Positions 142 to 56,918 of a DNA stretch of 64,000 nt are shown here, one piece after another (within the stretch, counting starts at the first letter, position 1; each line of letters starts with the position of its first letter). Both the position numbers and the translations under genes were made by a program. Below the pieces are notes generated by a model. The model ran no database searches, was not told where the DNA came from, and worked only from the letters and a program-made list of their open reading frames with translations. Origin of the DNA: Rhodohalobacter sp. SW132 (GTDB lineage Bacteria; Bacteroidota; Rhodothermia; Balneolales; Balneolaceae); contig NZ_QUOK01000006.1 of the NCBI RefSeq assembly GCF_003390325.1, positions 1 through 64,000 of the forward strand, given 5' to 3'.

Positions 142-1119
142 AATCAAACATGGTATTTCTGTCCACATCAAGCTGCACCAGAAATAAACCCCTTCAGGAC
201 CAAACGCCAATCACTGCTTCCAAGCCCTGAGAAATACCATGTTTTACCCCAACATCAATCCTAACCCTCAAACATGGTATTTCTGTGCACGTCAGGCTGC
301 ACCAGAAACAACCCCCTTCAGAACCAGACACCAATCACAATTTCAAAGCCTTGAGAAATACCATGTTTTACCCCGGCATCACTCCCAACCTCTAAACATG
401 GTATTTCTGTCCACTTCAAGCCGCACCAGAAACAACCCCCTTCAGAACTAAACACCAACCAATGTTTCAGAGCCCTGAGAAATACCATGTTTCATCCCAG
501 CATCACTCCCAATCCCCAAACATGGTATTTCTGTCCACGTCAGGCTGCGCCAGAAATAAACCCCTCTAGGACTATACGCAATCACTGTTTCAAAATCCTG
601 AGAAATACCATGTTTCATCCCAGCATCAGTCCCAATCCTCAAACATGGTATTTCTATTCACTTCAAGCTGCGCCAGAAACAAACCCCCTTCAGAACCAGA
701 CACCAATCACAATTTCAAAGCCCTGAGAAATACCATGTTTCACCTCAACATCAATCCCAACCCCTAAACATGGTATTTCTGTCCACGTCAAGCTGCGCCG
801 GAAACAAACCCCTTCAGGACCAAAAACCAATCACTATTTCAAAACCCTGAGAAATACCATGTTTCATCCCAGCATCACTCCCAACCCTCAAACATGGTAT
901 TTCTGTCCACATCAAGCTGCGCCAGAAATAAACCCCTTCAGGACCAAACGCCAATCACTGTTTCAAAATCCTGAGAAATACCATGTTTCATCCCAGCATC
1001 ACTCCCAATCCTCAAACATGGTATTTCTGTCCAAGTCAAGCTGCACCAGAAATAAACCCCTTCAGGACCAAACGCCAATCCCGATTTCAAAACCCTGAGA
1101 AATACCATGTTTTTGTTTC
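142..1119. repeat. 124-bp tandem array of palindromic units
   Basis: The left arm GAAATACCATGTTT preceded by GA recurs with starts at 229, 353, 478, 600, 725, 849, 973 and 1097, a spacing of 122-125 bases. In the first seven it is followed about 25 bases later by its exact complement AAACATGGTATTTC. The array opens with a lone right arm near 147-160 and closes with a lone left arm. The arms hardly change while the ~25-base loops and the linkers carry substitutions. The right arm also overlaps TATTTCTG, which can pair with CAGAAATA about 17 bases downstream in most units, so alternative hairpins are possible. The period is not a multiple of three, so the short open frames here do not form a repeat protein. 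Function unknown. Confidence 0.93.
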
Positions 1120-16433: not shown

Positions 16434-16498
16434 ATCATTGCTGTTCAAAATATTTTTGAAGCTGGCAAAAGCCTGAGTTCGATTCTAAAATTAATTTA

Positions 16499-16656
16499 AA
16501 AAAGCGGGTGATCCTGTCCAAAAGAGCGTCATCCCGTACTTGATACGGGATCTCCTATCCCTAATACAGGAGATACCGGATCAAAGTCCGGTATGACAGT
16601 AACTGAAGATAATATGCCTTGTTGTACGCTCTTTTGGACAGGATCACCCGCTTTTT
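16499..16656. repeat. 158-bp MITE-like element with perfect 31-bp terminal inverted repeats
   Basis: The arms 16499-16529 and 16626-16656 are exact reverse complements over 31 bases (outer end AAAAAGCGGGTG, inner end AGAGCGT). Inside lie two further hairpins: CCCGTA/TACGGG near 16532-16548 and ATACCGGA/TCCGGTAT near 16573-16595, themselves enclosed by GTCAT/ATGAC and GATCTCC/GGAGAT pairs. No transposase is encoded. The inner part belongs to the family also seen at 7404 and 56651-56910. The A- and T-runs at the ends would let it serve as a terminator for glmM. Confidence 0.88.
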
Positions 16657-17109
16657 AACATTAGGTATGACATTATTAATCGAACTCAGGTTAAAAGCAT
16701 TTTTTTAAAGTAGATGGATCTACAGGAAAGTTTGTTGATGAAAAATTCTTGTGCTGTTTATGAAGTTATAAAGGCTCCCGGTCATGTTGCAACCCGATCC
16801 AGCATCTCCCATTCTGGTTCGAAACGTTAAACTCCGCAAGTGAGATACGGTTGTTTTATGCGAAGACGGGAGATTAGGGAACAGGGTTCGCGATAACATC
16901 TCAAAAGAGTGTGTAGCTGTTACGACTTCTGGACTTCTCGGTTCAGCGAACCGAGTTACGTAGGAATTCCAGACGCTTAAAAATCGCTGAGTTCCGCTGA
17001 AAGACTTCTGTCCAAATTTCACAACTCAGCGAAACTCTGTGTGATACTTTGTGTAAATCTGCGATTTTAAAAATCAACGCGGATTATTCACCAGGTAATT
17101 TTTGATAGA
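16657..17109. other. Intergenic region without a credible gene
   Basis: About 450 bases between the inverted-repeat element and the mtnA stop. It holds a hairpin CTCGGTTC/GAACCGAG at 16937-16955, enclosed by a further TCTGGA/TCCAGA pair. A 100-codon frame on the minus strand has no recognisable features and is not called. Confidence 0.5.
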
Positions 17110-32860: not shown

Positions 32861-33127
32861 TGAACTACCTCGGGGCAGAGCCCGCGAGGTATCAAATAAG
32901 AACCCTTAACTTTTTGGTCAATACAAAGCTTACTTTTGGAGTGTCCCCCTTTGAAGGGGGCAATGGGGGATGATTTGTAGAGTTTTGAGACCATAAAAAT
33001 TGTTAATTTACTTGAATCAACGCCTACTGGATCATCCCCCAGCTCACTCCGTTCGCTTCCCCCCTTCAAAGGGGGACTTTTATCTTTTTCCGACCCAGAG
33101 GGTCGGGGAATTAAACAACTTATGAAT
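32861..33127. repeat. Hairpin-rich ~265-bp repeat, copy A
   Basis: This block shares its order of motifs with 42859-43111: GAACTACC then a GGGC...GAGGT hairpin, CCTTAACTTTTTGGTCAAT, CCCCCTTTGAAGGGGG, CAATGGGGGATGA, then CATCCCCCAGCTC, TCCGTTCGCTTCCCC, GAAGGGGGACTTT-type segment and a CCGACCC/GGGTCGG hairpin before AATTAAAC. The CCCCCTTTGAAGGGGG block at 32945-32960 is repeated in inverse near 33060-33075. No coding potential. The copy lies just downstream of the galactan operon. Confidence 0.85.
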
Positions 33128-56650: not shown

Positions 56651-56910
56651 GTCATCACGGACCCCGATCCGCGATTTTCCATCTCAGCACGCAGAACGTT
56701 CAACCGATAGGAGAATCCACAGGCCGGACTCAAATGGGAGATACCGTGTCGGGGCTCGGTATGACTTCAAATAGCACCCAGCCATCCACGGTCATCACGG
56801 ACACCGATCCGCGATCTTCCATCTCAGCACACAGAATCCATTCAGCCAGTGGCAAAATCCACCGGCCGAACTCAAATGGGAGATGCCGTGTCGGGGCACG
56901 GCATGACTTC
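56651..56910. repeat. Two-copy ~140-bp tandem duplication between the convergent ASPIC genes
   Basis: GTCATCACGGAC begins copies at 56651 and 56791. Each has a GGGAGAT-CC-GTGTCGGGG-type hairpin ending in GGTATGAC or GGCATGAC (starts 56736 and 56878), so the offset drifts from 140 to 142. The inner hairpins belong to the repeat family of 7404 and 16499. Substitutions in the stems are partly compensating, for example CCGTG with CACGG in copy 2. Confidence 0.82.
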
Positions 56911-56918
56911 AGATGAGT

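Follow-up and report, generated by a model that had tools for sequence, protein, structure and literature searches.

What is the array of inverted repeats that opens contig C6 of Rhodohalobacter sp. SW132, and how have its arms remained so uniform? The window analysed here, the first 64 kb (64,000 nucleotides) of this contig in an assembly of 5.08 Mb and 45 contigs, begins 143 bases to the left of the array, and the closest long ORF, on the minus strand, ends at 1159. Tandem Repeats Finder, run on the window, placed the array at 144-1112 with a period of 124 and 7.8 copies, in line with the tandem arrangement originally predicted. That prediction had counted seven copies with half-units at the ends; instead, eight complete arm-loop-arm units of ~99 bases are present within 146-1112 (Table 1) and neither end carries a half-unit, the impression of half-units having come from the phase chosen for the unit. 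The arms, described as nearly unchanged over 14 bases, are indeed invariant but extend over 15: all 16 represent one perfect 15-mer, AAACATGGTATTTCT or its complement AGAAATACCATGTTT. The loops (68-70 nt) do vary, with a mean identity of 0.84 inside the array, and all seven spacers separating a right arm from the next left arm measure 25 nt. The period of unit plus spacer (123-125) is not divisible by three and, as had been noted, breaks any reading frame. An integron attC array was set aside on anatomy, since the 25-nt spacers leave no room for gene cassettes.

Table 1. Units and spacers of the tandem array (positions in the window)
Feature	Span	Arms	Loop	Strand	Basis
REPIN-like unit 1	146-244	146-160, 230-244	69 nt	.	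perfect 15-bp inverted repeat
REPIN-like unit 2	270-368	270-284, 354-368	69 nt	.	inverted repeat
REPIN-like unit 3	394-492	394-408, 478-492	69 nt	.	inverted repeat
REPIN-like unit 4	518-615	518-532, 601-615	68 nt	.	inverted repeat
REPIN-like unit 5	641-740	641-655, 726-740	70 nt	.	inverted repeat
REPIN-like unit 6	766-864	766-780, 850-864	69 nt	.	inverted repeat
REPIN-like unit 7	890-988	890-904, 974-988	69 nt	.	inverted repeat
REPIN-like unit 8	1014-1112	1014-1028, 1098-1112	69 nt	.	inverted repeat
Seven 25-nt spacers	245-269, 369-393, 493-517, 616-640, 741-765, 865-889, 989-1013			.	arm-to-arm distance

The units fold better than shuffled sequence (z -2.0 to -4.5): the fold of unit 1 beats 200 of 200 shuffles on both strands (z -3.5 on the plus and -4.5 on the minus strand); for unit 2 the corresponding values are z -3.0 and -2.0. 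Over 79 elements the mean z is about -4.6, as compared to about -0.3 for the loops alone, and the strength of the fold relative to shuffled sequence is about equal on both strands. It had further been proposed that two structures compete, the right arm pairing through TATTTCTG with CAGAAATA. Competition is real, but this particular pairing is not conserved: the arm that it ties to the loop is the left one, 4 of the 8 units of the array contain both 8-mers, and arm-loop complementarity outside the window array stays at the shuffled level (4.98 vs 5.23 in the same genome, 5.14 vs 5.26 in the other genus that carries the element). The genuine competing pairing is the one between adjacent units across the 25-nt spacer. 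Each right arm that is followed by another unit has two partners, its own left arm (69-nt loop) or the left arm of the next unit (25-nt loop), and a four-unit fold shows both kinds of pairing, within the unit and across the spacer.

The array belongs to a dispersed family. Arm-like 15-mers with at most two mismatches occur 142 times in the genome versus 18 for the reversed control, and the paired core GGTATTTYT-N60..90-ARAAATACC occurs 55 times versus none. Across the order, a slightly stricter pattern retrieved the arm pair from 18 of 128 genomes, which belong to two genera of a single family. Copies of the element were collected through pattern matching, with core lengths of 85-102 allowed, and positioned manually. 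The resulting 153 comprise 56 isolated copies and 97 that lie within 200 bp of another one, where the period is mostly 118-131. Unit length falls, within these search bounds, between 96 and 101 bp in nearly all of 151 copies. Isolated copies contain no conserved base outside the 15-mers, and the ends of 54 of them show no excess of direct repeats that would betray a target-site duplication; the unit is therefore taken to run exactly from 15-mer to 15-mer and, given the lack of a conserved flank, the spacer of the array is counted outside it. For only 17 of 58 copies in the Rhodohalobacter genome does most of the element fall within an ORF of 120 aa or more, compared with a fraction of 0.79 of the positions in the same loci. 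The sequence of the arm was not found in the bacterial literature that we searched.

In relatives the arms do not vary as freely as the loops; had they done so, this would have spoken against the original prediction. Arm identity averages 0.91-0.92 inside each group, whereas that of the loops (64-72 nt across copies) is ~0.6, a shuffled level (0.585 between the two genera vs 0.58-0.60 after shuffling). The two arms of a copy are identical to each other in 121 of 151 cases (shuffled mean 29, maximum 43). Arm variation resides mostly at positions 2, 4, 12 and 14, where it affects both arms in 137 cases and one arm in 9, figures that count copies and not independent events; symmetric arm types seen more than once number six. 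Since positions 2/14 and 4/12 mirror each other inside the arm, every arm is in addition a weak quasi-palindrome by itself (AGACAT-GGT-ATtTCT); the common types contain one or two mismatches and AAACATGGTATGTTT none, and an isolated single arm is probably a weak hairpin at best. No GT[AG]G foot is conserved beside the arms of isolated copies, and the inner ends of the arms do not read GT[AG]G either. At several loci of the other genus (L131, L135, L136, L139, L145 and L165), units with AAACATGGTATGTTT arms stand beside units with standard arms in tandem arrays.

A candidate enzyme is encoded on contig C3 (C3:171128-171703; 192 aa), where its gene occupies one of the spacers in an array of 11 units of the element. 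The protein matches the REP-associated tyrosine transposase (RAYT) model NF047646 with an E-value of 1.2e-13; its scores lie below the curated cut-offs of both NF047646 (51 vs 80 bits) and PF01797 (20.1 vs 23 bits), and it is a divergent member of the group. Across nine homologs, neither the HUH histidines nor the Y---NP motif shows any variation. A sequence search of the PDB with this protein gave no match, whereas its AlphaFold model (pLDDT 89.9) has as its top fold match in the PDB the E. coli RAYT with REP hairpin (4ER8; E 3.9e-8, TM 0.75). When a collection of named genomes was scanned, only distant homologs were retrieved, with 28-34% identity, from Saprospiraceae. In a tree of 49 RAYT homologs, the five genes flanked by the element (from the Rhodohalobacter genome and from genomes G088, G089, G100 and G108) form one clade with 100/99 support, a grouping that none of 500 label shuffles equalled. 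In genome G101, a contig ends within a sixth such gene, which adjoins an element and, as far as its partial sequence goes, is nearest to this clade. Many of the order's other RAYT genes have palindromes of different sequence at their borders, an arrangement known for REPtrons (PMC6006769).

Two further RAYT genes of the Rhodohalobacter genome have palindromes of their own. The second, on contig C9 (locus L033, 3300-3420), carries the palindrome ACCTGACAGGTTTTCAAAACCTGTCAGGT in its reading frame, between the HUH and the tyrosine motifs, an arrangement described for subclass 2.4 (PMC6006769). The third (C3:314 kb; locus L034, 2540-3630) is bordered by palindromes with CTGCAAGA/CTGCCAGG, and a 19-base piece of its border is confined, within this genome, to the two sides of the gene.

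The units are best read as REPINs, i.e. two inverted REPs around a loop, forming a new family that lacks the GTAG foot of classical REPs. Conserved inverted ends at a fixed distance around a variable loop, with the capacity to form a hairpin, dispersal mostly between genes both as singles and as arrays, and cognate RAYT genes flanked by the same repeats were all found for this family. We consider it very probable that the units are REPIN-like non-autonomous elements recognised and moved by a RAYT-type HUH/tyrosine transposase, and that the arrays arise through local duplication. Two inverted 15-base recognition arms would enclose a 64-72-nt loop of almost free sequence and, once the DNA becomes single-stranded, for example on the lagging-strand template, could fold into a 15-bp stem. 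Recognition and cleavage of the arms by the C3 RAYT would then allow the unit to be moved or copied to new sites, which would be mostly intergenic and devoid of target duplication, such movement being presumably rare. As no RAYT gene lies beside the window array, the C3 enzyme would act on it in trans. Loops and spacers of one array are similar to one another, and the tandem array of unit plus 25-nt spacer therefore probably arose through local duplication. Of the three roles suggested originally (structured transcript, nucleoid-binding site, recombination target), the last comes nearest, in so far as the units resemble REPINs tied to a RAYT transposase.

REPINs of Pseudomonas fluorescens SBW25 likewise consist of two inverted conserved short ends around a variable spacer, are of fixed length from end to end (71 or 110 bp in SBW25), are mostly extragenic, come in several flavours per genome, and form ordered tandem arrays that include flanking sequence, with arrays beside the cognate RAYT gene (PMC3116915). 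The present elements, by contrast, occur in another bacterial group and have 15-mer ends without a GTAG foot that are probably not stable hairpins singly; their unit measures 96-101 bp, their arrays reach up to 11 units, and their arms are nearly invariant across two genera. The transposase fold is shared with the E. coli TnpA_REP/BIME system (4ER8), in which, as here, one RAYT goes with one repeat family and is flanked by its repeats; the E. coli REPs, however, are single GTAG-footed hairpins, whereas in the window family the strong stem joins the two arms. Further parallels are offered by the TnpA-Y1 subclasses 2.6 (Bertels group 5) and 2.4 of Bacteroidetes (PMC6006769), which share the HuH, Y---NP and SS motifs and have genes flanked by repeats, those of subclass 2.6 being 'atypical' and, as here, without GT[AG]G. 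None of the subclasses is an exact fit to the motifs of the C3 RAYT (NHFH and YIHRNP), and the text consulted describes neither the window elements nor tandem arrays of them. The family is a new one in a group for which atypical RAYT-linked structures are already known in outline (subclass 2.6; PMC6006769).

The history of individual copies can be followed at orthologous sites, which we located in other species through the joined flanks of elements from genome G107. All seven G107 sites tested are also occupied in G108, with flank identities of 74-88%, and site turnover therefore seems slow. Across eight matched G107/G108 units, only 3 of 240 arm positions differ, where a divergence of roughly 20% would lead one to expect about 40 by simple arithmetic; the selection-like conservation of the arms claimed at the outset is thus recovered between species. 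Alignable loops of the same pairs differ by 19-40% and two are unrelated, those of sites 1 and 7, which gave no match in either orientation. At site 6, the loop of the second unit is inverted in place between the two genomes (z 9.3 for the inverted and 0.1 for the forward comparison). The first unit of that site has a single orientation in both genomes (z 12.0 for the forward comparison), as does the spacer. At site 1, genome G022 has AGACATTGTATTTCT on both arms in place of the AAACATGGTATTTTT of G107, and each of the three differences is mirrored on the other arm.

Other comparisons revealed differences in presence and number. The element is absent at site 3 in G104, although the region is locally too diverged to fix the exact junction, so that it does not provide a clean empty site. 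At site 5, the element is degenerate in G022 and one of two units is missing in G108; at site 6, G022 has one unit instead of two, and one element of G031 corresponds to two in G092. In G101, an element is nested in a copy of another repeat family which occurs without the element in G104, and an element of G084 is absent from G083, where other repeats occupy the place. Such presence/absence, copy-number change and nesting are indirect signs of a putative mobilisation by the RAYT. As a separate observation, the loop at site 4 (loci L141, L216 and L218) keeps, by eye, two inner hairpin-like stretches in three species, with matched changes, also by eye, in TGCTGATG/CATCAGCA and TGCTGATT/AATCAGCA.

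The REPIN-like reading does not easily accommodate everything observed. Intact elements are numerous in G107, but the RAYT homologs examined from this genome, the strong ones, fall in, or nearest to, other clades. A cognate RAYT thus seems to be missing from one or more of the genomes that keep intact elements, and conservation of the arms may not need one. The absence of a GTAG-type foot and the near-invariance of arms at fixed sites despite slow turnover fit no more readily. For G107, either the RAYT was lost recently or was missed, or the arms are kept by a host function or by strand-switch correction. Under the first of the latter two, elements that arrived as REPINs would now be maintained by a RAYT-independent role of the hairpin, such as transcription end, mRNA 3'-end protection or protein binding. 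This is possible but, in our judgement, unlikely: near-invariant arms (3 of 240 positions) at seven sites with diverging loops and flanks, intact elements in G107 and the location of copies mostly outside long ORFs would all suit it, but the element can vanish from a site (site 3 in G104) or decay there (site 5 in G022), the arm type can change at one site, and a host function would not predict that the arm family follows one RAYT clade. Strand switching of replication at quasipalindromes is an established process, and it might by itself, without a dedicated enzyme, account for arm symmetry and loop inversion through correction at inverted repeats. The predominance of two-arm over one-arm changes at positions 2, 4, 12 and 14 (137 against 9 copies), the three matched changes of site 1 in G022 and the in-place inversion at site 6 would be in keeping with such a process; the presence of the same 15-mer at dozens of sites in two genera and its link to a single RAYT clade would nonetheless stay unexplained, and we consider this account, too, to be an unlikely one. 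More doubtful still is the notion that the elements are long-lived resident sites of flipping and exchange at fixed positions, and not relics of earlier transposition; their 15-base ends would be actively kept even without the cognate RAYT, and their middle would be exchanged or flipped in place.

Readings that dispense with REPINs altogether fare worse. A repeated structured RNA could draw on the strong outer stem and on the inner hairpin-like stretches that the site 4 element keeps, by eye, in three species; however, no Rfam match was obtained, the folding of the loops does not exceed that of shuffled sequence on either strand, the units fold about equally well on both strands, and loops are unrelated between genera, which makes this explanation very improbable and leaves the structured transcript of the original prediction unsupported. 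Inverted ends, a length of about 100 bp and intergenic dispersal would also befit a MITE, i.e. a short element with terminal inverted repeats mobilised by a DDE transposase, but the lack of target-site duplication in 54 isolated copies and the identity of the arm-associated gene, an HUH transposase, render this origin extremely improbable.

If the elements are REPIN-like, they bear on the open question of why bacteria retain REPINs and RAYTs for so long. A REPIN family without GTAG tracks one RAYT clade and occurs both in genomes that have this RAYT and in others that apparently lack it, and its alignable orthologous copies permit the evolution of arms, loops and flanks to be compared with and without the enzyme, a comparison that would separate RAYT-driven maintenance from host function. 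The few sites examined already reveal arms that hardly change, loops that drift or are replaced, one loop flipped in place, and changes mirrored between the two arms.

Several other repeats were noted in the window. To the left of the array, positions 60-89 form a perfect 15-bp loopless palindrome (TTGCTGACGGGGGCT/AGCCCCCGTCAGCAA), the sole such match in the window, and a short tandem repeat of CATGTTTTGTTT (1106-1145; 3.2 copies) abuts the last arm of the array. An inverted repeat with 38-nt arms, 95% complementary and separated by 96 nt, is located at 16492-16663, and a 142-bp unit is repeated 1.9 times between two genes at 56651-56911. Finally, an inverted pair at 32943-33077, GTCCCCCTTTGAAGGGGGCAA and TTCCCCCCTTCAAAGGGGGAC, lies 93 nt apart with each arm palindromic, and looks like a second REPIN-type element.
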